Source: an uncultured Cryomorphaceae bacterium
GTDB lineage: Bacteria > Bacteroidota > Bacteroidia > Flavobacteriales > Schleiferiaceae
Direction of reading: 5' to 3'
Length of the DNA stretch: 64,000 bases
NCBI GenBank assembly: GCA_937120475.1
Contig: CAKZJV010000007.1
Span: forward strand, 2,062,068-2,126,067
Below the pieces are notes generated by a model that saw only the letters and a program-made list of their open reading frames with translations, made no database searches and had not been told where the DNA came from. Each line of letters begins with the position of its first letter. Position 1 is the stretch's first letter. A program made the position numbers and the translations under genes. Shown in pieces: positions 3,001-55,480 of this stretch.

Positions 3001-3243
3001 AGCCCCAATCCTTCTGAAGGCCATGTAATCCTGCGTTGGGATTGGTTGAATTCCGGTTTGAACGAGGGTGAGATCACCATAAGAGTTTATGACCTGAAAG
3101 GAGCTTTAAGGGTAGAGAAAAGTGCCAGTGCGCAAAACAACACTCAATTGATCAATATGGAAGCTTTACCAGAGGGTGCTTATCTGGTGCAAGTGTACCA
3201 GGAAAACAGGCTCTTGCATAAAGAGAAACTGATCAAGGAATAA
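1..3243 (+). CDS. T9SS type A sorting-domain protein, 5' partial
   Basis: The reading frame is open from base 1, so the true start lies upstream; the GTG at 37 is probably internal. The first ~200 visible residues hold Asp-box-like motifs (TSNGGSSW near base 180, STDAGNTW near base 380) typical of BNR/sialidase-type beta-propellers. The middle (bases ~700-1800) alternates short hydrophobic strands with Asn/Gly turns, like a right-handed beta-helix. A more helical acidic stretch follows (bases ~2100-2900). The last ~85 residues (FSLSPNPSEG, YDLKGA, GAYLVQVY, then a basic end) match the type A sorting domain that sends proteins through T9SS to the cell surface. Probably a large secreted or surface protein; substrate or adhesion role unknown. 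Confidence 0.85.
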   Translation, partial: DINRYDRRSNSWVTYFNAPSNRDANSGVSALAFAPSDLDRAYVAYQGISWGDPISQRFFRTSNGGSSWLDITDRITYNNSTTIYTWTWISDIVVDPQDANHLFVSIKNYGKDGANPSQGKFRVMESTDAGNTWTDISTGLKPIPVNDLEYIEGTDDLIFAATDAGVYYWDKPNQTWQCFSNSLPNAIAINLEHNRCTQELYVSTQGRGIWKVDMKGWLRPQHHIYDYTVWDYDRFMDGDIIVHPNAELYISAKIHLGHDARILIEPNGRLVLKNKGILTSGNCNENWSGIWMEGQSSQPQQTAYQPKLILEPGSVIEYAEQAINTTAPPTGSNWVVWGTQGGIIDAEGAVFRNNTRDVNLLSYTSPTNQAYKASFKNCEFERDSNYRNPSLMAHISMMGVEGVLLQGNRFNFDISNQPAFKDNGEGIYALNATFICDRSSTNNASFSGYRDAIRARNVLCANTARPIEINRTVFNDNTHSIYLSEAQYAKVSHNSVHVPNVAVHTHINAPAVFQPALYGIYMDGCQDFQLYENVLFTDGQNGAIETTGLIIKNSGPVATEVYRNIIDGFTVGLEAIGRNRDAGLTDVGLRLKCNDIGYVKGNEYDVFIAQANSHPENGIQVFQGKPNIFSGAELPNNLFTPNGKPFTSNFQNEENSSVAYYYGQGNIRLEPLQAVGILKSGLSEAVDMTTHCQPRPLAPPSNITTLNQELSQAETDLGNDLGLRAQYIDEGATPQLEAQILFASSQQEYQDLYIDLMEIAPYVSDENLMNVAQIEDYPELALRNIMVANPHASRNPEIMEILYLKEPPLSQQTLDDIEAGEQTITAKDVLDMDIMEAQARSEAATLQILAYYREQEQYGSIKPHLLSRDEPHFHYSLVDYHLSRAELAEAQQVLDDLPTKCVMEDQDWLDYQEMTEYYDVVKYLDLSDPEALGGEAATTLNTIAAYEGDGPASGRARNTLAHYGQPTTYFEPVYMPGGQGKKASDPQPERPESAISGFSLSPNPSEGHVILRWDWLNSGLNEGEITIRVYDLKGALRVEKSASAQNNTQLINMEALPEGAYLVQVYQENRLLHKEKLIKE

Positions 3244-3262
3244 CATGATTTTAGGTTAGGGT

Positions 3263-3298
3263 AAGAGGGCTACTTGCATCAAAGTGAGTGGCCCTTTT
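3263..3298 (+). terminator. possible intrinsic terminator after the first T9SS gene
   Basis: Arms AAGAGGGC (3263-3270) and GCCCTTTT (3291-3298) pair with one G-T wobble; the loop can pair further (CTT with AAG). The T-run is only four bases, so strength is doubtful. It sits between two same-direction T9SS genes. Confidence 0.4.
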
Positions 3299-3306
3299 CA
3301 AAAACG

Positions 3307-3314
3307 TATCTTTG
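3307..3314 (+). promoter_or_regulatory. Bacteroidetes -7 box TATCTTTG
   Basis: TATCTTTG fits TAnnTTTG and ends six bases before the ATG at 3321, which would put transcription start at or next to the start codon. No clear -33 TTG at the expected ~20-base spacing. Confidence 0.4.
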
Positions 3315-3320
3315 AATATA

Positions 3321-4817
3321 ATGTATCTGGTCCGTACACTACTAATCCTGCTGTTGTTTCCCATTATCATGGGTGGACAGACAGTTTTTAATAATGCATT
3401 CAGTGTTGGAGGTAACCTGCTAACCGAACTACTAATTACAGATACCACCTATATCACAGCCGCAATTAACAATCAAGACAACAAGAAATTAGATTTTTCC
3501 ATATTCGATTTACAAGGGAATCTCATAGATACGATCAATTATCGTTTTGACAGTGTTCAGAATTTTCCAGGTAACTGCGGGAAGTGCTTTCAGAATAGGC
3601 ATAATGAAATCTACTACGCACAATATAATTCAATGGCATCTGACACTGGTTACGTTGCAATCCTAAAGCTTAGAAGCGATCTCAGCATTAAAAAAGTACG
3701 ATCCTACACTTTTAGAGATTCGTTGACGACTGTGTTCAAGGCCATGCAATTTGATACGGATTCTACTTTCATTGCAACCGGCTATATATTTCGAAGGAAA
3801 CCGCCCTTGCTCGGTAAATACGATCTTTTGGTAGCTAAGTTTGATACAGCTTTCAACCTTCTGTGGGAGAAGCGAATCGTAGATCATCGTCCCAACCAAG
3901 CGTTAGGTTATATAGGTCATGATATTTCTGTGGATGCCTACGGTAGTGTTTTGATATCAGGCTATGGTAGGTATGGTCCTAATACGGCTATCGCGGCCCG
4001 ATTCAGGCGTTCTGATGGCTATATGTATTGGTTTAATGAGTACTCGGATTCATTGGGAAATGCAGGGATGTTCGGTATTGATAACGGAGATGGTACCTAT
4101 CAATTTCATCGCCACGTTGCCACGCAAAATACTGTTACGATGGGCACCCGATTTAATAAAGTAGTGACCGGGACACTCGACACTGCCGGAAATATGATCA
4201 ATTTATCATCATTAGGTAAGGATAATCGGTTATATGCTGGCTATGATTTAATAAGAACCTCTGACGGCAACTATTATCTCGGGGGCTATACTTACATAAA
4301 TGGTAATAACGTAGGTCTCGGCTTTAAATTTGCTCCCAATGGCGATAGCCTTTGGATGCGCTACTATTGGCATGACGATCAACAGGATTTATCCGAGATT
4401 GAGATATTTTTTGAAACTCAGGACAGTGGATTTATACATGCCGGGTATTATGGTGACTTGTTTCAGCCAACGGTTTTCACGGTCCAGACCTGGCTGCTGA
4501 AAACCGATAAATTCGGTTGTGACAGTATAGGATGCCACACGATTGGAGTACCGGAAGTAATGATTCCTGGTCTGTTGGAGGTTTTCCCCAACCCCAGCCA
4601 GGGCCGGTTCCGTCTTAGCTGGACGTACGGCAACCCCGAAAGTTTTCATCTGACTATACAGGACTTAAACGGCAAAGTGTTGTACCGCGATGAAGAAGCC
4701 TTTTTAAGCGAAGAGGCCTACGCCATTGATCTCACTGGTCAGCCACAAGGCTTATACCTACTTAACCTGAGCATAGACGGTAAGCATGTATGCAGCCGCA
4801 AATTGGTGGTGGAGTAA
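3321..4817 (+). CDS. T9SS type A sorting-domain secreted protein
   Basis: 498 residues. The open frame reaches back to 3288, but the ATG at 3321 directly begins a signal peptide (MYLVRTLLILLLF..IMGGQ) and is preferred. The body has repeated strand-turn units with 'G.D....YG' and 'LLKTDKFG' patterns seen in secreted Bacteroidetes beta-propeller proteins. The end (VFPNPSQGRFRLSW, DLNGKVLY, GLYLLNLSIDG, CSRKLVVE) is a typical type A sorting domain for T9SS export and surface attachment. It follows another T9SS protein on the same strand. Function beyond secretion is not visible. Confidence 0.85.
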   Translation: MYLVRTLLILLLFPIIMGGQTVFNNAFSVGGNLLTELLITDTTYITAAINNQDNKKLDFSIFDLQGNLIDTINYRFDSVQNFPGNCGKCFQNRHNEIYYAQYNSMASDTGYVAILKLRSDLSIKKVRSYTFRDSLTTVFKAMQFDTDSTFIATGYIFRRKPPLLGKYDLLVAKFDTAFNLLWEKRIVDHRPNQALGYIGHDISVDAYGSVLISGYGRYGPNTAIAARFRRSDGYMYWFNEYSDSLGNAGMFGIDNGDGTYQFHRHVATQNTVTMGTRFNKVVTGTLDTAGNMINLSSLGKDNRLYAGYDLIRTSDGNYYLGGYTYINGNNVGLGFKFAPNGDSLWMRYYWHDDQQDLSEIEIFFETQDSGFIHAGYYGDLFQPTVFTVQTWLLKTDKFGCDSIGCHTIGVPEVMIPGLLEVFPNPSQGRFRLSWTYGNPESFHLTIQDLNGKVLYRDEEAFLSEEAYAIDLTGQPQGLYLLNLSIDGKHVCSRKLVVE

Positions 4818-4823
4818 CTTTTT

Positions 4824-5261
4824 TTAGTTTTTGGTCAACTCTTTTTGGTAAACATATTCAAAACCAAAAATTTGCAAGTGCATTTGTATTGTAAGTTCCT
4901 CACGTTGATCTAACAATTTAGCCACATCCTCCCAGGCTATTTTTGGTTTGGTGTAAAGAGCATTAAACTCCAGGCGATTGCTCTTTTGGCCTTCTAATCG
5001 CAGTTTCAGGTTGCGGTTACCGGTGAACAGGCGTTCTCCTTTTTGAAGTATATCCAGGCTTCGAACCTTGACCGGGATGTTGAACCAGAAGGGATTAAAC
5101 AGAGCCGCTTTTACCTCAATGCGCGGGCGTTTGGTGGATTGGTCTATCCGTATTTCGAGAATATCAAAACGCAGGTTTTTAAACTCTATCCAGAGGTAGG
5201 CTAAAGACAAGGCCAGCAGCCCGGCCAGCCAGTATGCCGCTATCTTAATCTTTCCGGCCAT
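4824..5261 (-). CDS. membrane-anchored LEA-2-like small protein
   Basis: 145 residues. One N-terminal membrane segment (residues ~7-25, AAYWLAGLLALSLAYLW), then a beta-rich domain with 'FDILEIRID..TKRPRIEVKAALFNPFWFNIPVKV', resembling the LEA type 2/WHy beta-sandwich, in which an N-P-[FT] turn is common. The start overlaps the end of the upstream 57-residue gene by 17 bases, so it is probably the last gene of the element operon. A second, duplicated LEA-like protein lies at 31645-32532 in the core genome. The role inside a mobile element is unknown. Confidence 0.6.
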   Translation of the reverse strand: MAGKIKIAAYWLAGLLALSLAYLWIEFKNLRFDILEIRIDQSTKRPRIEVKAALFNPFWFNIPVKVRSLDILQKGERLFTGNRNLKLRLEGQKSNRLEFNALYTKPKIAWEDVAKLLDQREELTIQMHLQIFGFEYVYQKELTKN

Positions 5262-5418
5262 AGTGTTCCATTATGATTTCAACCTGCCGGGGCGAAAACG
5301 AATATCCCGTACAGGTTCCCAGTTCTTCTTCGATCAGTTCCAGCCACTTCCGCAGTATATAATAGGATATACCGTAGTAATGGCATAGCTCTTTACGGTT
5401 CATTGTCTTCTTCTCCAT
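5245..5418 (-). CDS. small HTH-like protein, 57 aa
   Basis: ATG at 5418 to TAA at 5245 encodes 57 residues beginning MEKKTMNRKELCHYYGIS; an alternative ATG is at 5403. The pattern 'RKELCHYYGISYYILRKWL' looks like the helix-turn-helix of small Bacteroidetes MerR/excisionase-like proteins in which a conserved 'S..TLRRWL' helix reads DNA. It lies four bases downstream of the LPD1 gene and overlaps the following gene by 17 bases, which supports it as real and cotranscribed. Probably a DNA-binding regulator of the element; target unknown. Confidence 0.6.
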   Translation of the reverse strand: MEKKTMNRKELCHYYGISYYILRKWLELIEEELGTCTGYSFSPRQVEIIMEHYGRKD

Positions 5419-5422
5419 ACCC

Positions 5423-6334
5423 TTAGAAATAAGTACGTACCTGGGCCAGGAATTTGCGAAACAAAGGGCTTACCTCTTTGAGTTCAGCCGGGGTCAGGTA
5501 GTAGTTTGAATTGTACTTCTGCTCGGTCAAAAACAGGTTTTTAATACCCTTCTTTTGCAGCTCGTGGCCGATAAACTGTTCAAAGAGCCGGGCAAATACC
5601 TCGTTTCTACGGAACCAGTAATCCCGGCTGGCCTTTCGGGTAAGGCGTTTCATGTAGTTGGAACGCAACTTTTTTTCCGGGTCTTTCCAGTAGGCTTTTT
5701 CTAAAATATCCTCGGTGATATTGCGCAATATCCATTTATCCTCGTAGGGTATGCGCCTTGAATTAAGGCTTCGGCCTGCGGTCAGCGGAAACGCACTGCG
5801 TACCCGCTCATAATGCCCGCCTAAATAATAATCTATAAAGTGTGCGTACTCATGAGCAAAAGCCCCGATACCCCCGGTATTGACGAAGCGTATTTCTTTG
5901 GGTGCCGGGTAACGGTCAAAACGGGCGTAGCGGGTTATATTGATGATGTTCGAGTGGGATTCAAAGTGAGCCTGTGCGCGGCTTCGTCCACGCGCTCCAA
6001 AAGAAATCCCCAACTTATGATCTAACCCCAGGTTGTGGCCTTTAAATTGTAAAACCTGGTTAAAGTCCTGCAAACAGATGTAGAGGGCCGCCAGGTAGTT
6101 GAACCGGTCTTCCAGGGACAACCAATTACCGAACTGGAAACCCCTTAAATGGAACTTTTGCGATACCAGGGCCGTATTGTTAACCATCTTTTCGGCTTCT
6201 TTGGGCAGGCTGGCCCCTTCCCGGAACATCCGGTAAAAATCTTCCACCCCGTTGCGTGTCCAGTAGCGGTCTATACGGGAACCCCTGGTAAACCCGGTCA
6301 GGGTATCGTGTATCTTAATGCCCTGGTTGCTCAT
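5423..6334 (-). CDS. LPD1-type metallopeptidase-like protein
   Basis: 303 residues. Residues ~108-170 carry the diagnostic order of the large polyvalent-protein domain LPD1: 'LGISFGARGR', 'AQAHFESHSNIINITR', then 'GGIGAFAHEYAHFIDYYLG'. H161-E-x-x-H165 is a zincin-like metal site, and a possible third ligand is the Glu in 'RRNEVFARLFEQ' (~residue 250). LPD1 is usually part of very large polyvalent proteins of phages and conjugative elements; here it stands alone with its own N- and C-terminal extensions. The start overlaps the end of the preceding 51-residue gene by ATGA. Predicted to cleave or process a protein during entry or packaging of the element, but the substrate is unknown. Confidence 0.75.
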   Translation of the reverse strand: MSNQGIKIHDTLTGFTRGSRIDRYWTRNGVEDFYRMFREGASLPKEAEKMVNNTALVSQKFHLRGFQFGNWLSLEDRFNYLAALYICLQDFNQVLQFKGHNLGLDHKLGISFGARGRSRAQAHFESHSNIINITRYARFDRYPAPKEIRFVNTGGIGAFAHEYAHFIDYYLGGHYERVRSAFPLTAGRSLNSRRIPYEDKWILRNITEDILEKAYWKDPEKKLRSNYMKRLTRKASRDYWFRRNEVFARLFEQFIGHELQKKGIKNLFLTEQKYNSNYYLTPAELKEVSPLFRKFLAQVRTYF

Positions 6335-6486
6335 TTCTTCCTACGTTTTAGGGTTCTTTTTTTTCTTTTAATTCCTTTTTTCAGTCGTTTCATTCGCTTC
6401 TGGTTCAGGTCACCTTCCGGCACACCTTCGCCAATAATGCGTTCGCCCTTTTTCAGTCGTGCGAGTGGTGTTTTCGGTCTTTTCAT
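6331..6486 (-). CDS. small highly basic protein, 51 aa
   Basis: ATG at 6486, TGA at 6331; 51 residues, MKRPKTPLARLKKGERIIGEG..., with about 20 Lys/Arg, concentrated in the tail (KRLKKGIKRKKRTLKRRKK). It begins four bases after the ATPase stop, and its stop overlaps the next ATG as ATGA, so coupling with both neighbours is likely. The charge and size suggest binding to DNA, as in small packaging or condensation proteins of viruses, but there is no recognisable family. Confidence 0.55.
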   Translation of the reverse strand: MKRPKTPLARLKKGERIIGEGVPEGDLNQKRMKRLKKGIKRKKRTLKRRKK

Positions 6487-6489
6487 GTT

Positions 6490-7050
6490 TTAAGCTCCAA
6501 TGTTTAAGGTTTTGTGAATATGACGGTTGGGGTCTTCCTGCACCAGGGGCATCGCCCGGATAACCTTCTCGGGGTATTTGGTGCGCAATAGGGGATTGGT
6601 GGCCTGCTCCCCGGTCTTGAAGAGGGTGAGGGTGTCAGAGATGCGCACCAGGTCACGCGGAATATCGGTCAGGCTATGGAAAACAAAGAGGATATCCAGG
6701 TTTTTCTGCTTGCTGTCCAAAACGAATTTGCGCACATCATCGGTGAGTTTGCCGCCCACGTACTTGGTAGCATCTTCAAACACCAAAAGGGCGTTGTACA
6801 CATACCTTTCAATGTCGGCCATCACCTGCCCGGTGTCGCTGCTCCAATAGCGGTAAGTACCTTTTTGCCAACGAGGCAACAGCGCACTGTCCAAGGTGGG
6901 TACATCGGCCCATACCGGGTTGTCAAACGTATCGACCACCAGTATTTTTTTAGGGTGCCGCTGCATGACGTTTTCCCTTACAAAGGTGGTTTTACCGGTG
7001 TTGCGGGTGCCTGCAATCAGGCACACCATGTTAATTCTAAAGTCGCTCAT
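6490..7050 (-). CDS. HerA/FtsK-like P-loop ATPase, 186 aa
   Basis: Walker A is GTRNTGKT at residues 14-21, a beta-strand 'KKILVVDTFDNPVW' follows, and Walker B is 'NALLVFEDA' at 86-94. 'ILFVFHSLTDIPRDLVRISDTLTLFKTG' (119-147) resembles the sensor/arginine region of the HerA-FtsK superfamily. There is no membrane segment, unlike Zot/pI of filamentous phages. The length is close to the packaging ATPases of small tailless membrane-containing viruses (about 200 residues in PRD1 or STIV types). A plasmid ATPase that pumps or positions ssDNA is the alternative. Start codon overlaps the upstream gene by ATGA. Confidence 0.65.
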   Translation of the reverse strand: MSDFRINMVCLIAGTRNTGKTTFVRENVMQRHPKKILVVDTFDNPVWADVPTLDSALLPRWQKGTYRYWSSDTGQVMADIERYVYNALLVFEDATKYVGGKLTDDVRKFVLDSKQKNLDILFVFHSLTDIPRDLVRISDTLTLFKTGEQATNPLLRTKYPEKVIRAMPLVQEDPNRHIHKTLNIGA

Positions 7051-7601
7051 GCTTTGTAGGTTTTAAATGCCCTGGCCCCGAATACCATAAGCAGGTTGCC
7101 CAAAAGCATCATTTCGGGGGTGAGGCGGATGTTGTATTTGCGGATGACCTCGGCCAGACTGCGACTGAGTTGGTCACGTTCCCCTTCGGTATAGGGTATT
7201 TCGTCCAGTTCCCTTTGTAAACGCTGGACTTCCTGGTACAGCCAGCGTTCCCTTTCTTCCAGGTCTTCCAGTTCGGAAGGGTCGAGGGTTTCCATTTCGC
7301 GGAACCGCTGACGGTCTTCCGGTTTGAAGCGTTTTAAAAAGCGTTTCCGAAAGGAGTAGGAAAACAGGCTGGTTTGCCCCAAGTCGGAAAACAGGACGAG
7401 CAGTTCCGCGAGGTCTTTGGGGTCGGTACGCTGGTTTTCTTCTTCGGTTTCGTTTTCCGGCCCTTCGAAAGCAAATTCGCTTTCTTCGGAAAAGTCATCC
7501 GGGTCAATATCTATGGGTTCCCTTTCAGATTCGTTGCCCCGTTCCAGGGTGGGTTCCGAAAGGGTCTTTCCCAGGTCAATTTCATCGGTTTTGTCGCTCA
7601 T
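7047..7601 (-). CDS. acidic protein with C-terminal hydrophobic segment
   Basis: 184 residues. The N-terminal ~65 residues are very acidic and likely disordered (runs of E and D). Then comes a helical region with 'LLVLFSDLGQTSLFSYSFRKRFLKRFKPEDRQRF' and a coiled-coil-like stretch (~residues 105-150). The last ~25 residues contain 'MMLLGNLLMVFGARAF', a hydrophobic helix that could sit in a membrane. It overlaps both neighbours by ATGA, so it is made together with the ATPase. I do not recognise the family; a membrane partner of the ATPase is a reasonable guess. Confidence 0.6.
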   Translation of the reverse strand: MSDKTDEIDLGKTLSEPTLERGNESEREPIDIDPDDFSEESEFAFEGPENETEEENQRTDPKDLAELLVLFSDLGQTSLFSYSFRKRFLKRFKPEDRQRFREMETLDPSELEDLEERERWLYQEVQRLQRELDEIPYTEGERDQLSRSLAEVIRKYNIRLTPEMMLLGNLLMVFGARAFKTYKA

Positions 7602-7822
7602 AGCTGGTATTTTTCTTTCACGTTCACCACATCTTCGGCCAGGGCCGCAAACTGCCGGGGGTTGGCCATCACTTTTTGTAAGAGCCGGGGAAGACTGGAA
7701 AGGCCCGTATCGGTACCCATGAGTAGCCCCACGGTATCAAAGGCCGCCAATACCTTTTTGAGGTCGGCCTTCAACTCCCGGTTCTGGTGTTCAAGTTCTT
7801 CTATTCGTTGCTTTTCGTGCAT
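7598..7822 (-). CDS. small coiled-coil protein, 74 aa
   Basis: Starts MHEKQRIEELEHQNRELKADLKK, a clear leucine-heptad coiled coil over residues 5-30, followed by a helical tail. The start lies 22 bases inside the upstream gene and the stop overlaps the next start by ATGA. Family not recognised; it may serve as an oligomerisation or scaffold component of the element. Confidence 0.55.
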   Translation of the reverse strand: MHEKQRIEELEHQNRELKADLKKVLAAFDTVGLLMGTDTGLSSLPRLLQKVMANPRQFAALAEDVVNVKEKYQL

Positions 7823-8022
7823 ACGCCTTTTTTACGGCAGCGGAGGGTGGAAAAGAAATCCCCGTAAGGGTCACTTTTCAGGTAGTCCGCTACATTGGTG
7901 AGTAAATCGCCCAGGTTGTATTCTTCCTGGCCTGTTCTTTTCTGGCCTTTCTTCACCAGTTCCCGGAGCTTCTGACGGGTAGCCGGGTGTACGCGGGCCG
8001 ACAGCGTTACGGTCTTAACCAT
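7801..8022 (-). CDS. ribbon-helix-helix-like small protein, 73 aa
   Basis: The N-terminus 'MVKTVTLSARVHPATRQKLRELVKKG' has the strand-then-helix pattern of ribbon-helix-helix DNA-binding proteins (alternating V-T-L-S-A-R-V then an amphipathic helix). A second helix follows around 'YNLGDLLTNVADYLKS'. Such proteins accompany relaxases and Reps on Bacteroidetes plasmids as accessory factors or copy-number regulators. It sits directly after ssb and overlaps the next gene by 22 bases. Assignment is from sequence pattern only. Confidence 0.55.
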   Translation of the reverse strand: MVKTVTLSARVHPATRQKLRELVKKGQKRTGQEEYNLGDLLTNVADYLKSDPYGDFFSTLRCRKKGVCTKSNE

Positions 8023-8034
8023 AGCTTACGTTTT

Positions 8035-8376
8035 CTATTTTTCGTCCTGGTCATTTTTGGAAGAGGACACCAGGTCAATACCTCGGGCGATCAGTTTACG
8101 GTCAATAACCACCCCGCCTTCGGCATCGCGGTAATGATCAGGTTTGAGGGTACCCGATACAAAAACCTTTGTGCCTTTAGTCAGGTAGGGGGTAACCCCT
8201 ATTTTCTTATTCGACCACTTCGTACAGTTGTACCAGTTGGTAGATTCTATTTTTTGTCCCTCATTGTCGATATAGGAGTGATTGACGGCTACTGAAAAGT
8301 TCAGTACCCATCTTCCGTTGACTTCTTTTTGTTCGCCTTCCCTTCCGATGTTTCCAATGATTTCGGTTCTTTCCAT
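8035..8376 (-). CDS. ssb: single-stranded DNA-binding protein
   Basis: 113 residues with the OB-fold pattern of SSB: 'TEIIGNIGREGEQKEVNGRWVLNFSVAVNHSY', 'STNWYNCTKWSNK', 'YLTKGTKVFVSGTLKP'. It binds ssDNA during replication. The acidic end (SSSKNDQDEK) is short and lacks the D-x-I-P-F tip of chromosomal SSB, so recruitment of host repair partners may be absent. It begins two bases after the Rep stop, so it would coat the ssDNA that rolling-circle replication makes. Confidence 0.85.
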   Translation of the reverse strand: MERTEIIGNIGREGEQKEVNGRWVLNFSVAVNHSYIDNEGQKIESTNWYNCTKWSNKKIGVTPYLTKGTKVFVSGTLKPDHYRDAEGGVVIDRKLIARGIDLVSSSKNDQDEK

Positions 8377-8377
8377 G

Positions 8378-9982
8378 TCAGATGTATTGATTAAAGTGGT
8401 TTATATAATTTTTAAAGCGGGGGTAATCTTCAGCGGTAATGGCCTTGTAAAACTCCCCGGTAGCGATGTACTTCATGACCGTTTTCAGTTCCAGTTCCCG
8501 GCAAATCTGGAAGTAGTGAGCCGGAGCCTGTACTTTGGGTACGTTGGCCTGTTTACCGTGGCGGGGCTGGTGGGCCATGCGTTCCGGGAACGCCAGGTAC
8601 CGTTCGTACTCACTACGCCCGGCCGGTTCCCCTGTAAACGGGTTCACTAAGTTGCGTTCGGCAGCTTCCAGGTCAATATGGCGTTCTAGTTCTTCAGGGG
8701 GGCCGTCTGCCCAAAAAGGCCGGGCCTCCGGGTCTTCAATATCGGGCGGGATAAGGTTGTCACAGTCATCGAAGTAATGGGCATCTTCTTCATAAGACTG
8801 CTGCAAATACGCCATGTATTCTTCTTCACTCTCAAACTCACGGGGCTTGGAAACGGGTTCCTGTACACAGGGTTCTTCCGGCTCGGGAGGGTTGGAGTAG
8901 TTTAACCGCTTTTCCCCGTAAAAGGCACCGAACTTGGAGTACATTCTTAAATATTTGGAGTGTTCCAATACCTCGGCAATCAGCGGGATGTTGTAGGTGC
9001 CGTCCGCATTTTTCAGGGCATCGTTTTTAAAATGGTATTTGATCGCTTCCAGGATGGCTACCACGTACTGCTTGCGCTGCTCGGTTTCCGGCAATTCGTT
9101 AAACCAGGGTTCGTTCAGGTAGTACTTTTTGCGGTAGCGGGCGGGGTCTTTATAGGCCACCCCTTCCGGTTCGCTATCGGTGTACACATAGTCCTTGCGG
9201 GCTTCGTCCACTATCCAGCGGCCTTGCGCATCTTTGCGGTGGACGTAGAGGGTTTCAAAGTGGATGCTTTGCGCCCCGGTCTGCTCTTTCCAGAGTTCCT
9301 TAATCTTGCTGTACACGGGCTTTCTTCGAAACTCCTTACGCATGAACACCAGGCAATGAAGGTGAATGTGCAGCCCGTTTTCGCTGCCGTGGGCCTTGGA
9401 GACTTCCAGGCCGTATTCCCCGGCAAAAATGTAGCGTTTCCAGTGTTTGTTTTTGCGCATCTGGTTAAAGGCGGTCAGCATCTCACGGGCGTAAAAGGAT
9501 TTGCCGCGCCAACGTCCGCCCCGGTGGGGAACGGTCAATACCAGGTGCATCGGAGTAGTATGTTCATAAAGCCGGGTTTGTTCCAGGTATTCGGCCCATA
9601 CTTTCCGTATCAACCGGCTTTTGCGATACGCCCAAATGTGATCGAGGCGGTGGCGGCTGTACCAACAGGCCATCAGTTGTTGCCGGTGGGTGTCGCCCTG
9701 CTTAAAGAGCGCATAAATGCCTTTGGTACTCTGCCGGAGGTTGTAGTGGGCTAATCCGAGTTCGTAAAGGTCTTCGTGGTATTCCCCGGTGTCGCGGTCG
9801 GCCAGGTACCGTTCGGGCTGGTCACGGAACAGGGATTTGCTTTTGGGAAGGGAAAGGCCCAGGGAATGGAAATAGTCTTCGATCTGGCCGGATAGTTCCA
9901 GGTTTTGTTTGCGCTTGTAGGTGATCTTGCGCGAAAACTTGTTATTGGACTTCAGGCGTTGCTTAGCGGAGAGGGTTTGCAT
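8378..9982 (-). CDS. rep: HUH-type rolling-circle replication initiator
   Basis: 534 residues. Motif 1 is 'MHLVLTVPHRGG' (~145-156), motif 2 is H205-I-H-L-H209 (the metal-binding HUH), and motif 3 is Y316-H-F-K319 inside 'EAIKYHFKND', giving the single catalytic Tyr of YxxK Reps. The protein would nick a plus-strand origin and stay attached to the 5' end during rolling-circle replication. The C-terminal ~150 residues are acidic and Pro-rich with no recognised domain; no helicase motifs follow. A single tyrosine and lack of a MOB signature argue for Rep rather than relaxase. First large gene of the element operon; a 93-base gap precedes it. Confidence 0.8.
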   Translation of the reverse strand: MQTLSAKQRLKSNNKFSRKITYKRKQNLELSGQIEDYFHSLGLSLPKSKSLFRDQPERYLADRDTGEYHEDLYELGLAHYNLRQSTKGIYALFKQGDTHRQQLMACWYSRHRLDHIWAYRKSRLIRKVWAEYLEQTRLYEHTTPMHLVLTVPHRGGRWRGKSFYAREMLTAFNQMRKNKHWKRYIFAGEYGLEVSKAHGSENGLHIHLHCLVFMRKEFRRKPVYSKIKELWKEQTGAQSIHFETLYVHRKDAQGRWIVDEARKDYVYTDSEPEGVAYKDPARYRKKYYLNEPWFNELPETEQRKQYVVAILEAIKYHFKNDALKNADGTYNIPLIAEVLEHSKYLRMYSKFGAFYGEKRLNYSNPPEPEEPCVQEPVSKPREFESEEEYMAYLQQSYEEDAHYFDDCDNLIPPDIEDPEARPFWADGPPEELERHIDLEAAERNLVNPFTGEPAGRSEYERYLAFPERMAHQPRHGKQANVPKVQAPAHYFQICRELELKTVMKYIATGEFYKAITAEDYPRFKNYINHFNQYI

Positions 9983-10075
9983 AGTGTTTTTTTGAGGTGA
10001 GCCACATTCTTTTTATTCCAGATGTTTCTTTTATTATCAAGGGAGGGCTGGTCAAATCGACTTTCATTTTGATTT

Positions 10076-10528
10076 TCAGTTAAATAGGATTCGTTTTTCG
10101 TTCTGCAATCCAATACGGGCGAAGCGCAGGAAACGCAGAGCGGAACCAAAGCCATTACCGGTAATCCGTTCCAGGTCTTCCAGAATGGCCTCGATGGTTC
10201 GGGCCTCCGATTGACGGAAAGGGTTGGTGTCGTTCTGTAGGGCGGTTTGAAGGCCCTGGAAATACCCTTTCAGGTCTTCCAGTTCCGGGGCGGGTTCTTC
10301 CGAAGGCATATAGGTTTGATTGCGCCCGGCCTCGGCCTGAGGCATTAAGGATTGTAAGCCGCTCCCCAAACGGGATAGGTTACGGTAAAAGCTGTGCAGG
10401 GCGGTTAATTGGTCTAAAAGGCATTCCTGGGCCTGCCGATGCTTGTTTTCCACCTGGAACCCAATGGAACGCCTTAAGGTGCCGGTGCTGCCTTTCAGGT
10501 ATTTGATTTTTTGGTGGATGCTTACCAT
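10076..10528 (-). CDS. helical hypothetical protein, 150 aa
   Basis: Begins MVSIHQKIKYLKGSTGTLRR and is predicted helical over most of its length, with a Pro/Glu-rich hinge near residues 72-85 (MPSEEPAPELEDL). No known motif. It lies between the hairpin/terminator cluster (10552-10634) and rep, so it is the first gene of the replication operon and may be an accessory factor for Rep. Function unknown. Confidence 0.55.
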   Translation of the reverse strand: MVSIHQKIKYLKGSTGTLRRSIGFQVENKHRQAQECLLDQLTALHSFYRNLSRLGSGLQSLMPQAEAGRNQTYMPSEEPAPELEDLKGYFQGLQTALQNDTNPFRQSEARTIEAILEDLERITGNGFGSALRFLRFARIGLQNEKRILFN

Positions 10529-10551
10529 TGGTTTTAGATTTCAAAGGTGTT

Positions 10552-10567
10552 CCGCCCTTCCGGGCGG
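10552..10567. repeat. short GC-rich hairpin CCGCCC-TTCC-GGGCGG
   Basis: A perfect 6-bp stem with a 4-base loop in the 169-base gap upstream of the 150-residue gene. A second weak stem (GGGAAA / TTTCC, ~10566-10589) follows. Rolling-circle Reps nick at the loop of such hairpins, so this is one candidate origin. Confidence 0.45.
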
Positions 10568-10605
10568 GAAAACTCTGTCGCGGGTTTCCAGCAGAAACAA
10601 GTGGT

Positions 10606-10634
10606 AAAAAAAGGGGAGCGGCCAAGCCCCCCTT
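10606..10634 (-). terminator. intrinsic terminator inside the element
   Basis: On the minus strand, AAGGGG...CCCCTT with a GC-rich loop is followed by seven T. It lies after the two small HTH genes and before the 150-residue gene and rep, so it separates the regulatory pair from the replication genes or limits read-through. Confidence 0.6.
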
Positions 10635-10697
10635 CTGCCGTCAACCCCCGGTCAGCCCAGGTTTTCAATCACAGGCTGCCGGGATATTGTAATGGGT

Positions 10698-10976
10698 TTA
10701 GAGACTACAAAGGCGGTCAATTTCCAGGTCAACACTACTTTCCAGTACAGTTCCTTTAATGGCCCCTGGTATCAGTTCGGTATAGGGGTCATTCAGGAGT
10801 TCACGAAACTTGGAACCCTTGCAGTTCAGGCGTTCCATAGCCTCGGTGTAGGAAATAAGCTTTTTACGTTTTTCCTCCGTTCGGCTGGAAATCGCAACCC
10901 TTAGAATGTTTTTCAAGTCTCCGTAGGTGACCGTCAATACCTGGTTCTCGGGCATACCGGATAAATCGGTTTTCAT
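10698..10976 (-). CDS. excisionase-like HTH protein, 92 aa
   Basis: The C-terminal half reads 'KLISYTEAMERLNCKGSKFRELLNDPYTELIPGAIKGTVLESSVDLEIDRL'-like: a helix-turn-helix followed by a wing, the layout of HTH_17/excisionase proteins common on Bacteroidetes mobile elements. The start overlaps the stop of the preceding gene by ATGA. Probably regulates the element or directs recombination; no integrase partner is seen nearby. Confidence 0.6.
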   Translation of the reverse strand: MKTDLSGMPENQVLTVTYGDLKNILRVAISSRTEEKRKKLISYTEAMERLNCKGSKFRELLNDPYTELIPGAIKGTVLESSVDLEIDRLCSL

Positions 10977-11200
10977 TGGTCATCGGTATGAACGGGTACG
11001 GACTGCAAACGCTTGATCGGGTGTAGCAGGGCATAGATGGTTGAGGGCTTGCGGTTGTATTCCTTCGCCAGGTCATCTATAATATCGCTGGATGCTTGGC
11101 CTTCAGCAAAGCGCAGGCGGTATTCGGTGGATAATTGGGAACCTAGCCTGATCTTTTCTTTGGTACGTGCATTCAACTTGGCCGGGTTTTTAATCTTCAT
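10973..11200 (-). CDS. small HTH-like DNA-binding protein, 75 aa
   Basis: The frame is open to a TTG at 11242, but ATG at 11200 (MKIKNPAKLNARTKEK) is preferred. 'SSDIIDDLAKEYNRKPSTIYALLHPIK' has the shape of a helix-turn-helix that reads DNA with a 'KPSTIYALL' recognition helix. First gene of the leftward operon; palindrome CGCTAGAAAATAGCG (11219-11233) lies just upstream and could be its operator. Confidence 0.55.
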   Translation of the reverse strand: MKIKNPAKLNARTKEKIRLGSQLSTEYRLRFAEGQASSDIIDDLAKEYNRKPSTIYALLHPIKRLQSVPVHTDDQ

Positions 11201-11218
11201 TGTCAAATTTTTTTTTCT

Positions 11219-11233
11219 CGCTAGAAAATAGCG
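11219..11233. repeat. palindrome CGCTAGAAAATAGCG
   Basis: 5-bp arms CGCTA/TAGCG around GAAAA, 18 bases upstream of the ATG at 11200 on the minus strand. The CTAGAAAA core recurs at 11495-11502. Candidate operator or iteron. Confidence 0.45.
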
Positions 11234-11308
11234 GGGGTTCAACTTTATTTATTCGCTCTACCTGAATATAGAAAATGCTTAAACCCCTTGAAAACACTAG
11301 GCTTCTGC

Positions 11309-11492: not shown

Positions 11493-11524
11493 CACTAGAA
11501 AAGCACTTGATGTAAATTCTAGTG
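11493..11524. repeat. inverted repeat CACTAGAA / TTCTAGTG
   Basis: Perfect 8-bp arms at 11493-11500 and 11517-11524 with a 16-base spacer. Shares the CTAGAA core with 11219-11233. Could be a Rep or regulator binding site, or a recombination core. Confidence 0.55.
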
Positions 11525-11582
11525 GGAAGCGTGGGGATTGCGTACTTTTACCCTTGAAGATATTAAGCGTTAGCTAATTCCC

Positions 11583-11709
11583 GTAGCCGAAAACTACGAC
11601 CTTTCAACTACACACGGGAATAGGTTTGGCGTCACCGTAAGCGTGGGCCTTGCTATTCTGTGTGTAGGGGTGTCGTAGCCCTCGGCTACAGATGGCTACT
11701 GGCCCACGC
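11583..11709. repeat. long imperfect hairpin with nested palindromic arms
   Basis: Outer arms 11583-11600 (GTAGCCGAAAACTACGAC) and 11672-11689 (GTCGTAGCCCTCGGCTAC) pair at 15 of 18 positions. Inner arms 11608-11623 (CTACACACGGGAATAG) and 11653-11667 (CTATTCTGTGTGTAG) pair over 8 + 5 bp around a small internal loop. Each outer arm is itself a small hairpin (CGTAG/CTACG; GTAGCC-CTC-GGCTAC). GGCTAC repeats at 11694-11699, and GCGTGGGCC (11641-11649) is complementary to GGCCCACGC (11701-11709), allowing an alternative fold. Could be an ssDNA origin/recombination site or a structured RNA. Confidence 0.75.
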
Positions 11710-11847
11710 GGTTTTTAAAGTAGTCCTTCGGGGGTCGGGAGGGACAATTGACCTTGAGCCGGAATATTGGCCATCGGTTGTTGTTGCAACCTTAAAGGGA
11801 GGGTTGGACAATGTGAAGTGCTCATGGGACGATGAGAACTCTACTTT

Positions 11848-11991
11848 ATGAAAAAGTTTGAAATTGTGGCTACCGACAAAGCCAGCGGTGAAAAATGCAC
11901 GAAAATTATTTATGCGGCTACCAGGGAGAAGGCCTTGGTCTATCTTGGTGAGTTGGGTTATGAAAAGCCAATTCAGATTAATGAAATTTAA
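11848..11991 (+). CDS. small hypothetical protein, 47 aa
   Basis: ATG at 11848 to TAA at 11991; MKKFEIVATDKASGEKCTKI... has alternating strand then an amphipathic helix (AATREKALVYLGELGYEK), so it looks protein-like rather than random. It lies ~140 bases right of the long hairpin and overlaps the next frame by 11 bases if that begins at 11981. No family recognised. Confidence 0.45.
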   Translation: MKKFEIVATDKASGEKCTKIIYAATREKALVYLGELGYEKPIQINEI

Positions 11992-12283
11992 AAATAGAAT
12001 GTATAAACGACTGTCAACTCTGCTTTTAGTTTTCTTTTTGGGTTGTTCTTGCACACACCCTCTTGACAGAAAAATTAGCGATGATAATGCGCATGAATAC
12101 CTAGATGAGATATGTGAGAAAATGAATAAGCCCCAATATGTTTGTCTAAGACTTCGAGAGGATTACATCTTGGTTTTGGCTTCAAAAGAGCGTGGCAAGG
12201 ATGGTAGGGTAGCTATAGTTCATCAGTATGGCAAAACCTTCGAGCAACTCACTTTTCGAGATTTAAAAGATAATCCACTCTAG
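11981..12283 (+). CDS. small putative lipoprotein
   Basis: MKFKNRMYKRLSTLLLVFFLGCSC: a basic start, hydrophobic core and a Cys after L-G form a lipobox. ATG at 11981 overlaps the 47-residue gene; ATG at 11999 (MYKRLS) is an equally good start. The mature part (~77 residues) is charged and soluble, with 'EYLDEICEKMNKPQYVCLRLREDYILVLASK'. Probably cell-envelope anchored; no known domain. The longer open frame back to 11858 is unlikely because it lacks a signal-peptide layout. Confidence 0.55.
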   Translation: MKFKNRMYKRLSTLLLVFFLGCSCTHPLDRKISDDNAHEYLDEICEKMNKPQYVCLRLREDYILVLASKERGKDGRVAIVHQYGKTFEQLTFRDLKDNPL

Positions 12284-34722: not shown

Positions 34723-35826
34723 CTAGCGCAGGGAATAGGTTTTTCCGGGGTGGCTTTGCACTACTCCCTTTAATTCCAAACCCATTAAAACGGTAAGTAC
34801 TTTACCGATGGGCCATTCGGCACGGTAGCCAAGCTGGTCCAGCTCCACTTTTTTACCGGCCTCGCTCAATAGGCGGTGTAATTTTTTCTCAGCCTCATCC
34901 ATTTCAACGAATAAGGCCTGCTGCAACTGGGGTTTCGGGCGTTTTTCCTCCCAGCCCAAAATATACTTTAAGTCTTCTGCACCGCTTATTAAAGCTGCTT
35001 TATTGGTTTTGATGAGGTAGTTACATCCTTCCGAAAAGGTGTCGCCCAGGCGGCCGGGTACGGCAAAAACATCACGGTTGTAGGTGTTGGCAATTTCAGC
35101 CGTGATCAGGGCCCCGCCCCTGCGGGCCGCTTCCACCACTATAATGGCTTCTGACATTCCGGCAATAATGCGGTTGCGCTTGGGAAAGTTTTCGCGATCC
35201 GGGCCGGTTCCACTTATAAATTCACTGATGAGGCTGCCTCCACTGGCCAGAATTTGGGAGGCTACTTTTTTATGGAGAGCGGGGTAAACCGTATGAAGGC
35301 CATTCCCCAAAATGGCCACGGTGGGTAAATCCTTTTCCACGGCTTCTTTATGAGCGCAAACATCTATTCCATAAGCTAAACCACTCACAATAATGGGCTG
35401 AAAAACCTGCAGGTCCGAAATGAAATCGCGGCAAAAAGCTTTGCCATAGTCCGTAGCATTGCGGGTACCCACCATAGCCAGGCAGCGCTGCCGGTTCAGG
35501 TTGGTTTTACCTTTTTGATAAAGCATCACTGGGCCATCTTCGCATAACTTCAGCCGTTTGGGGTAGGCTTCATCCAGGTAAAACAAGGGCGCTATTCCCT
35601 CTTTTTGCAGAAAGGCCAGCTCTTCTTCTGCCCGGCTTAGAACACTTTGTTCCGAAATACTTTGGGCTGACTTTTTGCCGATACCCGGTATTTTCTGGAG
35701 CATTTTACTTTTCTCCCGGAAAACGGCTTCAGCACTGCCGCAATGGGCTATGAGGCTTTTGGCACTAACGGCCCCGATACCCGGGATAAGGGTAAGGCCG
35801 ATACGATATAAAAGATCGCTATTCAC
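34723..35826 (-). CDS. dprA: DNA-processing protein DprA
   Basis: 367 residues. N-terminal helix-hairpin-helix pair ('LTLIPGIGAVSAKSLI', 'LQKIPGIGKKSAQSI'), Rossmann-like core 'CLAMVGTRNATDYGKAFC', 'VSGLAYGIDVCAHKEAV', 'PTVAILGNGLHTVYPALHK', 'ISEFISGTGPDRENFPKRNRIIAGMSEAIIVVEAARRGGALITAEIA' and a C-terminal winged helix. Loads RecA on incoming ssDNA during natural transformation. Start is GTG at 35826. The presence of dprA fits a naturally competent lineage. Confidence 0.93.
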   Translation of the reverse strand: MNSDLLYRIGLTLIPGIGAVSAKSLIAHCGSAEAVFREKSKMLQKIPGIGKKSAQSISEQSVLSRAEEELAFLQKEGIAPLFYLDEAYPKRLKLCEDGPVMLYQKGKTNLNRQRCLAMVGTRNATDYGKAFCRDFISDLQVFQPIIVSGLAYGIDVCAHKEAVEKDLPTVAILGNGLHTVYPALHKKVASQILASGGSLISEFISGTGPDRENFPKRNRIIAGMSEAIIVVEAARRGGALITAEIANTYNRDVFAVPGRLGDTFSEGCNYLIKTNKAALISGAEDLKYILGWEEKRPKPQLQQALFVEMDEAEKKLHRLLSEAGKKVELDQLGYRAEWPIGKVLTVLMGLELKGVVQSHPGKTYSLR

Positions 35827-35881
35827 CAGGAGAATTTACAAAACTCCGGTAAATAGCGATCACAAACTGATATAGAGAGGT

Positions 35882-37738
35882 TTAGCGGGCTATAACCAGC
35901 TTTTTCTCCAGCACACCGGCATCGGTATGTACGGTTAATACGTGTGTCCCGGCTGCCAGCGATGAAACATCAATGGAATAGCGGCCCTGGCCTTCTTCCT
36001 GGTAGGGTATTCTCAAAGACTGGCCGGTAATACTGCTCAATTGCATGGCTTCTACCTCCACCGGATTGTCGAAGCTCAGCTCTACTTTTTGAGAGGCAGG
36101 GTTCGGAAAAAGCTTGGTTTGAACCTTCAGGGGATCTTCAACGGAAAAGAGTTGGATAATATCCACTTTGGTGATGTGGTTGAGGAACATCATTCCGGCA
36201 ATACCAAAGGCATGGTTAAAATCACCTCCCAGGTACAGCTCACCCGAAGGCGTGTAATTCAATGCATTTACCGAAGCGTCCAGAATACCGAAACCTTCGA
36301 TATAGCCATTGTGATAGCGCAAAATATTCTGGCCGTAGGTACCGAAGTTAGGGTAACTGATTTTGCCGCCTGCAAATAATCCGAAGGGGGTAGTTTGCAG
36401 GCACTTAATGGCTACTTCGTGCAAATTGGTTTGCGTGGTAAACTGCCAGGGCTCTCCAATAAGGCGAGTCCATTGGCTACCGTCAAAATAACCCATAGCA
36501 AAGGTGTCCTGCTGACTGGAGCTTAAAAGATCGCAACCCACGTAGAGATTTCCCTGGTACTCCTCCATGGCATTTACAGAGGTAGGGACCCCATTACCCA
36601 GGCTGCCGAAAACGGTTCCGTCAAAGGTGGCAATGTGGTTGTAGGTAACCCCATCGATATCGGTAAAATCGCCTCCTAATACCAGTTCACCATTATGTAC
36701 AAAAAGCTCTTTTACTGTGCCGTTTGGAGAACCCAGGGCTACCCATTGGCTACCATCCCATTTGGCAAAATTTCGAAAAGTTGTTGGAGCCGTTACTTCA
36801 CTTCTGAAAAAACCGGCTGCATATAACTCATTGTTGTACACTTCTACATCATATACAATGTTAGGCAGGGCTCCAACGTAAAAACTACCCAGGGCATTCC
36901 ATTGGGTACCGTCCCATTCTACAACTCCCGCTCCCACACTAGTGGTTCCTGCAGCCCATATATCTCCGGCAATAATCAGATTGGAATTCATTTCCTCCAT
37001 ATCCATCACCTGGCCACTAACCCCGTTGGGGCTTCCAAAAGGTATCCAGTCATAACCCGCTATACCTGCAATGTAAGTAGATATATTGTTGGCCTGTACC
37101 ACACCGGCTGTATCAAAGTTACCGGCTGCCACCACTTCCCAGCTACCATAGGCATGAATAGCATTTACGGGGCCGTTAACACCTTCCTCCATGGTTTCAA
37201 AAGCCTGAAGGGCGGGATAGCCGGGCTGTATCCAGGCCAGTTCTTCGGGAGTAAAACCACTTTGGGCTACCCAATTATCCAGCTTATCCATTTTCATGTC
37301 CAATAGGTAGGCATAATTCATTTCACGGCTGATGGAGCGTGCCAACGGGTCATTCCCACTTTCTTTAATGAGATGACCTACGGCACAATATGTATTAAAG
37401 GGATCAATAAATACCGGTTGCCGCTGGGGGTGATACAGGTTTTTCGGAAACACTCCGGCCTTAGCATATTCAGCGAGGTGCTGCAGGGAGTTGTTGCGAT
37501 TTTTAAGTTGTTCAGGGTTGAGGTGATCGGTTGATCTTTCACTCAATATCCGGTGCACCCAAAAAAGGTGGGCCTGGATAGGGTTCTCTTCAGCCGGCAG
37601 TTCATACAGAACTTCGGGAATGTCGTGTTCAAATGCCCATCGTGTATTAACGCCCTTAAGCGATTCGTAAAGATTCTGAGCGTTGGCCTGGCCCATAGCC
37701 ACAACCAAAATAACGAGGGATAGTAATCGTGTTTTCAT
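35882..37738 (-). CDS. T9SS type A sorting-domain protein with propeller repeats
   Basis: 618 residues. Signal 'MKTRLLSLVILVVAMGQANAQ'. The first ~170 residues form a helical domain with 'NPIQAHLFWVHRILSER' and a 'YCAVGHLIKESG' motif. The middle is a series of ~45-residue repeats with 'W.ALGS', 'LVLGGDFTDIDG', 'LYAAGFF' and 'LYLGGDFNHAFG', as in secreted beta-propellers. The tail ('LFPNPASQKVELSF', 'GTHVLTVHTDAGVLEKKLVIAR') is a type A sorting domain. Divergent from the ECF sigma gene. Confidence 0.87.
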   Translation of the reverse strand: MKTRLLSLVILVVAMGQANAQNLYESLKGVNTRWAFEHDIPEVLYELPAEENPIQAHLFWVHRILSERSTDHLNPEQLKNRNNSLQHLAEYAKAGVFPKNLYHPQRQPVFIDPFNTYCAVGHLIKESGNDPLARSISREMNYAYLLDMKMDKLDNWVAQSGFTPEELAWIQPGYPALQAFETMEEGVNGPVNAIHAYGSWEVVAAGNFDTAGVVQANNISTYIAGIAGYDWIPFGSPNGVSGQVMDMEEMNSNLIIAGDIWAAGTTSVGAGVVEWDGTQWNALGSFYVGALPNIVYDVEVYNNELYAAGFFRSEVTAPTTFRNFAKWDGSQWVALGSPNGTVKELFVHNGELVLGGDFTDIDGVTYNHIATFDGTVFGSLGNGVPTSVNAMEEYQGNLYVGCDLLSSSQQDTFAMGYFDGSQWTRLIGEPWQFTTQTNLHEVAIKCLQTTPFGLFAGGKISYPNFGTYGQNILRYHNGYIEGFGILDASVNALNYTPSGELYLGGDFNHAFGIAGMMFLNHITKVDIIQLFSVEDPLKVQTKLFPNPASQKVELSFDNPVEVEAMQLSSITGQSLRIPYQEEGQGRYSIDVSSLAAGTHVLTVHTDAGVLEKKLVIAR

Positions 37739-45433: not shown

Positions 45434-46864
<1,431 letters not shown>

Positions 46865-46890
46865 TCGAACACCTGATTAGATATAAAAGA

Positions 46891-46919
46891 AAAACCGCGC
46901 TATGAGCGCGGTTTTTCTT
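46891..46919. terminator. bidirectional intrinsic terminator
   Basis: AAAACCGCGC-TATGA-GCGCGGTTTT: 10-bp perfect stem flanked by A- and T-runs, between convergent gdhA and gatC, so it can serve both. Confidence 0.9.
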
Positions 46920-46936
46920 GTTATGTAAAGTTGGTA

Positions 46937-47233
46937 TTATTCTTTCCGTTGCACCACTTTAGGTACCCTGAAGTAATCCGTATCGCGGTCCGGGGCATTT
47001 TTCAAGGCTTCCTCCTTGGTGGCCTGCTCTACAACCTCATCTTCCCTCAGCGTATTTTCCTCTTCATTCATGTAAACCAAAGGCTTTACATCTTCTAGCT
47101 CCAACTCATTGATCTTTTCTACAAAGCCCAGTATTTTATCCATATCGGATACCATGCTCTCTTTTTCCTCCTCGGTGAATTCAAGGCGGGCCAGGTGAGC
47201 CAGCTTTTCTACTTCTTTCTTATCGATCTTCAT
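46937..47233 (-). CDS. gatC: Asp/Glu-tRNA amidotransferase subunit C
   Basis: 98 residues. 'KEVEKLAHLARLEFTEEEKESMVSDMDKILGFVEKINELELEDVKPLVY' and 'LREDEVVEQATKEEALKNAPDRDTDYFRVPKVV' are the full GatC pattern. It holds GatA and GatB together for transamidation of misacylated tRNA. gatA and gatB are not in the window. A TATTTTTG box ends four bases before the ATG. Confidence 0.92.
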   Translation of the reverse strand: MKIDKKEVEKLAHLARLEFTEEEKESMVSDMDKILGFVEKINELELEDVKPLVYMNEEENTLREDEVVEQATKEEALKNAPDRDTDYFRVPKVVQRKE

Positions 47234-53461: not shown

Positions 53462-53484
53462 AACAACCCTTCGATGAATACATA

Positions 53485-53516
53485 AAAAATCCCGCTTATA
53501 GCGGGATTTTTTTATT
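53485..53516 (+). terminator. intrinsic terminator
   Basis: AAAAATCCCGC-TTATA-GCGGGATTTTT, 11-bp stem plus T-run, 24 bases after the CHU_C gene and before the convergent accC end; may act on both strands. Confidence 0.85.
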
Positions 53517-53552
53517 TACTACAGTAAAATTATAAAGGCTCAAAGAGTACTT

Positions 53553-55439: not shown

Positions 55440-55480
55440 TGCTGGTTGTTTAAAGGTTGCTTAACAAATCTATTAAAATA

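Follow-up and report, generated by a model that had tools for sequence, protein, structure and literature searches.

A structured RNA family of Bacteroidota with the predicted anatomy of a transcription attenuator

A stretch of 64,000 nucleotides from an uncultured Cryomorphaceae bacterium (the window) contains a long nested hairpin at 11583-11709. We infer with moderate confidence that this hairpin is the core of an RNA of ~150 nt from an uncatalogued Bacteroidota family, that the RNA lies near the 5' end of a + strand transcript and that it would act there as an attenuator. Comparison of sequences shows the fold, the strand, the promoter motif upstream and the same-strand gene downstream. 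It also shows that the pairings P4 and T are both conserved and share one strand.

The hairpin in the window

The hairpin observed in the preliminary description was confirmed. The outer arms were found at 11583-11600 and 11672-11689 with 15 of 18 positions matched (83%), as had been claimed. The second pair of arms has an exact core at 11608-11615 and 11660-11667. A third complementary pair, proposed to allow an alternative fold, was located as GCGTGGGCC (11641-11649) and GGCCCACGC (11701-11709). The RNA fold of the 166-nt stretch 11560-11725 had an energy of -65.2 kcal/mol on the + strand (z -3.99) and -65.3 kcal/mol on the - strand (z -5.27), and none of 200 shuffles reached this stability for either strand. 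Folded as single stranded DNA, the hairpin stood out less than as RNA (z -2.58, with 3 of 200 shuffles equally stable). All 64 kb were then scanned on both strands in folding windows of 130 nt, moved in steps of 65, with 20 shuffles per test. The hairpin had the lowest energy of the 1966 tests and the second lowest z, the z values being rough. Very low folding z values were also obtained at 35751-35945, 46801-46995, 53431-53560, 55316-55445 and 3186-3445. These are not copies of the RNA because the covariance model R3, described below, matches the window only once.

The match to the covariance model covers 11565-11714 on the + strand, so the functional unit exceeds the hairpin first described. 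The true 5' end of the leader RNA is probably a few nt upstream of 11565. The features of this copy are listed in Table 1. Helix P0 is formed by the 5' strand paired back to the middle of the hairpin and crosses P1 and P2. The 3' strand of P4 is common to helix T, which is terminator-like and excludes P4. The 47-aa ORF starts 139 nt after position 11709, and the lipoprotein-like ORF behind it is probably on the same transcript as the leader. A Por_Secre_tail domain is also encoded within the window; with the named host of a plasmid copy described below, it points to the phylum Bacteroidota, and the order searched below is probably Flavobacteriales.

Table 1. Features of the window copy of the RNA and its surroundings, in window positions
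Feature	Span	Strand	Remarks
Promoter-like TACCCTTG	11549..11556	+	one letter off TAnnTTTG
Putative structured leader RNA	11565..11714	+	R3 match 135.6 bits, E 9.4e-33
Helix P0, 11577-11584 with 11614-11621	11577..11621	+	8/8 pairs; own partner stronger in 55/59 loci
Helix P1, 11583-11590 with 11682-11689	11583..11689	+	two-sided changes at 8/8 pairs, 32 rows
Helix P2, 11594-11600 with 11672-11678	11594..11678	+	two-sided changes at 7/7 pairs
Helix P2b, 11608-11615 with 11660-11667	11608..11667	+	conserved elsewhere by eye only
Helix P3, 11620-11623 with 11653-11656	11620..11656	+	covaries in structure-fitted alignment; alignment-free p 0.07
Apical hairpin P4, 11628-11630 with 11647-11649 and 11633-11635 with 11643-11645	11628..11649	+	
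Helix T, 11641-11649 with 11701-11709	11641..11709	+	9/9 pairs; own partner stronger in 56/59 loci
U-run after helix T	11712..11716	+	sequence; family T-rich directly behind tail
ORF, 47 aa, downstream of leader	11848..11991	+	paralog in same genome
Second ORF, lipoprotein-like (LGCSC)	11999..12283	+	start and signal by eye; frame open from 11858

Relatives and distribution of the RNA

Plain DNA similarity returned only the window itself, both in its own genome and in one of 88 genomes of the family. The proposed search for further copies in the window's own genome by this means recovered the window alone. Relatives were detected only through the small ORF and through covariance models. A second site in the genome encodes a paralog of the 47-aa ORF (47% identical, E 0.0014). 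The DNA in front of this paralog can be aligned with the hairpin region, and the changes preserve pairs; of the 36 predicted pairs, 5 differ on both sides between the two copies. Model R1 was built from these two copies, the window and the leader of the paralog. It matched 2 of the 88 family genomes at E<=1 and identified two further copies in a sister genome (E 1.2e-19 and 2.7e-15). Both of these have a homologous small ORF downstream on the same strand, which is thus present behind all four genus copies. The small ORF starts 134, 140 and 148 nt behind the model match in three of the copies. In the fourth it is contained within a longer ORF and starts ~143 nt behind the match by hand count. 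The small ORFs of the three copies compared gave dN values of 0.14-0.23 and dS values of 0.99-3.1. As dN is well below dS, the small ORF is a real gene. No convincing match was obtained when its assignment to a protein family was attempted.

Model R2, built without the window copy, recovered that copy at E 4.3e-18. Model R3 was built from all four genus copies and matched 80 of 395 genomes of the window's order at E<=1. The best E was above 0.001 in 6 of the 80, leaving 74 of 395. In a phylum-wide draw, which overlaps the order draw, 33 of 395 genomes had matches at E<=0.01, including 17 that do not belong to the order; E-values in both draws are per genome and rough. Up to six R3 matches were found in one genome, and such copy numbers are lower bounds (up to 7 candidates scored per genome). 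Two of the R3 order matches were reverse-strand shadows of the hairpin in the two starting genomes. The model is strand-specific, the window copy scoring 119.5 bits forward versus 25.2 reverse. The covariance search advised in the preliminary description has yielded copies and covariation, rather than the lack of both that was named there as speaking against the hairpin.

A mobilizable Rhizosphaericola mali plasmid carries one copy, which is followed after 65 nt by a same-strand gene, and another copy is on a viral-collection contig with a relaxase-like ORF (by-eye reading). The rteR sRNA (RF04181) was found near RNA copies in two loci, L094 and L096, in which a RibD_C-like or similar 172-aa gene follows the RNA. 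rteR is a regulator of CTnDOT-type conjugative elements. The L094 and L096 copies appear to sit on conjugative-element-like DNA. The 18-base arm pattern was found in one viral contig (L016), which gave no R3 match, and was taken as chance.

Conservation of structure

In an alignment of 32 rows made with R3, 96.0% of cells pair and all 24 modelled pairs have two-sided changes. The covariation score was 0.79, while shuffles gave 0.23 and sliding gave no more than 0.10, in an alignment that is fitted to the structure and with shuffles that ignore relatedness. For this reason an alignment of 30 sequences was made with MAFFT only. RNAalifold recovered P1, P2 and P4 from it. Both sides were changed in at least one sequence in 17 of its 28 predicted pairs, 15 of the 17 being in P1 and P2. 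P4 is kept in the family mostly by one-sided G-U changes in this alignment.

Helices were also assessed free of any alignment, each strand being paired with its own partner and with partners from 25 other loci. The 59 loci used here and below are the best matches returned by the searches and not a random draw (60 matches minus one reverse-strand shadow). For P0 the own partner gave the stronger pairing in 55 of 59 loci (p 8e-11), and for T in 56 (p 1e-10). The pair first described as an alternative fold is thus real and conserved. P3 was stronger with its own partner in 36 of 59 loci and was not significant (p 0.07). A pairing of the 3' tail with a partner beyond the U-run was weakly supported (39 of 59, p 3e-4). 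The control pairings gave p 0.16 (upstream with tail), p 0.31 (loop with downstream) and p 0.036 (5' segment with downstream). Since one control reaches p 0.036, part of such signals is due to base composition. In two outliers, L095 and L098, the apical strand reads GGACGC and not GCGUGG, and the 3' tail reads GCGUCC (by eye). This is an apparent replacement of the whole helix that would preserve the pairing.

Promoter motif, U-run and neighbouring genes

The longest ORF within 900 nt was on the RNA strand downstream in 55 of 59 loci (p 2e-12) and upstream in 17. When the nearest ORF was counted instead, the numbers were 52 and 21. TAnnTTTG is the -7 promoter motif of Bacteroidota. An exact copy of it occurs in the 110 nt ahead of the RNA in 44 of 59 loci, whereas two control stretches contained one in 4 and 5 of 59 loci and the opposite strand in 9 of 59. 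The RNA is therefore placed as a leader would be, upstream of a same-strand gene and behind a promoter motif. The window copy is among the 15 loci with no exact motif within 110 nt upstream; the three nearest copies have TAACTTTG/TAAATTTG aligned to its TACCCTTG. At the eight positions around the match end, T outnumbers every other base (37 to 52 of 59 loci).

The downstream ORF begins 200-500 nt after the RNA in many loci, which leaves room for another promoter. The RNA could accordingly be a free-standing small RNA with its own promoter, ending at the U-run with T as its terminator, while the gene behind it is promoted separately. The promoter motif and U-run do bracket a unit of ~150 nt, and the downstream ORFs are unrelated and often at this distance. 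Such an RNA needs no same-strand ORF, yet ORFs are strongly biased to its downstream side as counted above, and the same small ORF follows all four genus copies. A free-standing small RNA is therefore considered rather doubtful. Control by the leader of translation, and not of transcription, would also fit the leader position, and in a number of loci ORFs start 30-70 nt past the U-run. Elsewhere the ORF is hundreds of nt away and the conserved U-run would be given no role, and this explanation is highly improbable.

Eighteen downstream proteins were scanned against Pfam. Five passed the cut-off, 3 matched below it only and 10 were without match. The families were TonB-receptor Plug (twice), thioredoxin, RibD_C and sortilin/BNR repeats. 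No shared pathway was evident among the 18 proteins, 13 of which had no Pfam match above cut-off. None of 10 downstream proteins matched NCBIfam. Defence genes were considered for 10 downstream proteins and rejected, the PADLOC matches (DndG-like 16.7 bits, Cas6-like 18.6 bits) being too weak as evidence. A protein family of ~180 aa (MKKIK..DF...L..SGLQLMETFF..N) follows the RNA in L062 (2122-2655), L063, L067 and L073, and its L062 member has no Pfam or NCBIfam match.

In 23 of 59 loci (e.g., L054, L061-L067, L069, L071-L073, L077-L079, L081, L084, L087 and L091) the RNA is preceded, at a distance of 105-140 nt, by the start of a divergent ORF of 73-142 aa. Eight upstream proteins were scanned, from 7 of these 23 loci and from L089 (at 157 nt). 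Five were above the cut-off of a helix-turn-helix family, one matched below it only and two were unmatched. The divergent helix-turn-helix ORFs belong to different families.

Mechanism

The order of promoter, two exclusive folds, helix with U-run and then a gene amounts to the anatomy of a transcription attenuator, from which we infer termination itself. As in an attenuator, two mutually exclusive helices are conserved and one of them, the covarying helix T, is followed by a U-run; P4, the other, shows mostly one-sided changes. Across the 59 loci helix T comprises 21 pairs in the median, with a loop of 26 nt. In 48 of the 59 the local hairpin also engages at least half of the 5' strand of T. 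The mean energy was -47.3 kcal/mol for the hairpin without tail and -49.8 kcal/mol with T enforced, values that are not like for like because the tail was left out of one. The two energies, again not like for like, were within 5 kcal/mol in 25 of 59 loci.

Under the proposed mechanism two states would alternate. In the first, P1-P4 of the nested hairpin would sequester the apical strand GCGUGGG and allow RNA polymerase to read on. In the second, GCGUGGG would pair with the 3' tail CCCACGC in a helix of ~20 pairs with the U-run at once behind it, and transcription would stop. A ligand, a protein or the 5' strand of P0 might trigger the switch.

The folded RNA might instead load onto RNA polymerase and allow it to read long, foreign operons, as a leader for processive antitermination or elongation. 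One fold stands before unrelated, often accessory genes, including TonB-receptor operon genes, and copies occur on the mobilizable plasmid, on the viral-collection contig with the relaxase-like ORF and in the two rteR loci. A conserved terminator-like helix right behind the RNA would be unexpected for such a leader and the downstream genes are not always long operons. This reading is judged unlikely.

The attenuator reading may be extended, as a tentative possibility, to an orphan switch RNA found across the phylum: multi-copy, partly on mobile DNA, placed before unrelated accessory genes and answering to a common signal or factor. If this is true, incoming genes (surface receptors, lipoproteins, tiny proteins) would gain shared control.

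Rolling-circle element and the origin or recombination reading

A - strand element with ORFs between 5423 and 11242 encodes Rep-like, SSB, ATPase-like and LPD1-domain proteins. The Rep-like protein has a GLHIHLH motif, as in HUH enzymes, and a Rep_1 match below cut-off. The preliminary description had offered origin, recombination site and structured RNA as readings of the hairpin. Structured RNA was borne out, while origin and recombination site were left unsupported.

An origin of replication or a folded single stranded DNA recombination site of the element would agree with the distance of ~320 bp between the hairpin and the outermost ORF of the element, and one plasmid copy of the RNA is 3' of a replication-initiation gene. 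A rolling-circle origin (dso/sso) would be expected to travel with its Rep, which is not the case here. Rep was found in one of 198 genomes, the window's own, and in 0 of the other 197; phylum-wide it was found in one of 395 genomes, again the window's own. The RNA was matched in many other genomes, and the suggested tie between hairpin and element is not upheld. The sole other relative of Rep that was found, at 39% identity, was on L015, a public genome contig of a Bacteroidales MAG. R3 gave no match on L015, where a run of about 100 N leaves a gap. The DNA fold is also the less unusual of the two on the + strand, the model is strand-specific, and the promoter motif, U-run and downstream ORF are conserved. 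These last three features would not be expected of an integron attC or a CTX-type attP, sites that an integrase or XerCD binds and recombines in the form of folded DNA. The origin or recombination reading is largely refuted and hardly credible. A REP/BIME palindrome, a kind marked by a GTAG foot and a RAYT (Y1) transposase in the genome, was considered as a further candidate.

No relatives of Rep were found in viral contigs, phages or plasmids. The ATPase of the element had no phage match, and its LPD1 protein matched 19 phage records at under 60% identity. The ORFs beside the Rep relative in L015 look virus-like by eye. The Rep/SSB/ATPase/LPD1 element (window 4824-11242) is rare and the sister genomes are without Rep. 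Similarity to the sister genomes ends at the nadD stop (window 12407 onward), and in the sister genomes G001 and G002 a comEC-like gene region follows nadD instead. This indicates a rearrangement or insertion border, and because similarity ends there the empty insertion site was not found. A palindrome, CACTAGAA...TTCTAGTG, is present just upstream of the leader at window 11493-11524 with CTTGAT in its loop. It could represent an operator or, alternatively, the place where Rep of the element would nick. The CTTG/AT nick is that of pC194-type plasmids and phiX174.

Comparison with known RNAs

No matches to Rfam 15 were obtained in the window at the curators' cut-offs. The 58 loci L043-L100 together with L101 and L102 gave 8 matches (6 tRNA, 2 rteR), none of them on the RNA. 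With permissive settings, Rfam models matched the window stretch and 5 loci at chance level only, and at places other than the RNA.

Attenuators and riboswitches with an intrinsic-terminator platform have a 5' leader, a structured domain, exclusive pairings and a terminator with a U-run. The RNA described here resembles them in its leader position, its structured domain, its two exclusive pairings and its terminator-like helix with U-run. It differs from the known ones in that its fold is not in Rfam 15 and combines a nested hairpin, the crossing P0 and a shared apical strand. The genes downstream of the RNA are, in addition, unrelated to one another. The put RNA, EAR and RfaH/ops are processive antitermination leaders found before many unrelated, often acquired operons. 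The RNA has in common with them one element before many unrelated genes, but here the terminator-like helix belongs to the conserved unit. It is probably a new RNA family to be grouped with cis-regulatory leaders, and attenuation is its probable mechanism. A multi-copy leader present in many Bacteroidota and absent from Rfam 15 would be a new class of regulatory RNA. One leader common to unrelated genes, including TonB-dependent receptors, is a puzzle.

No description of the RNA was found in searches of the open-access literature, and an earlier description under another name is possible. Flavo-1 (RF01705) and 6S-Flavo (RF01685) are given as structured RNAs of Bacteroidetes in a table of PMC2864571. 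The present RNA is likewise a structured RNA of this group, but neither model matches the window or the RNA in the scanned loci. PMC9723704 reports conserved structured 5' elements without Rfam hit in Flavobacterium psychrophilum, which precede genes such as pheA, hisG, ftsY, alaS and rimP. These are likewise unexplained flavobacterial 5' leaders. They may be distinct from the RNA, as the downstream genes scanned here matched none of the families named there.

6S RNA was considered and rejected, as RF01685 does not match the RNA of the window and the genome has another candidate. This is the only 6S-Flavo match of the genome and is on another contig (G000:C9:250162-250271, L026), below cut-off. 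At E<=0.001, 21 of the 88 genomes of the family had a match to 6S-Flavo, but none of them exceeded the Rfam cut-off, and the RF01685 model therefore seems too strict for this bacterial family.
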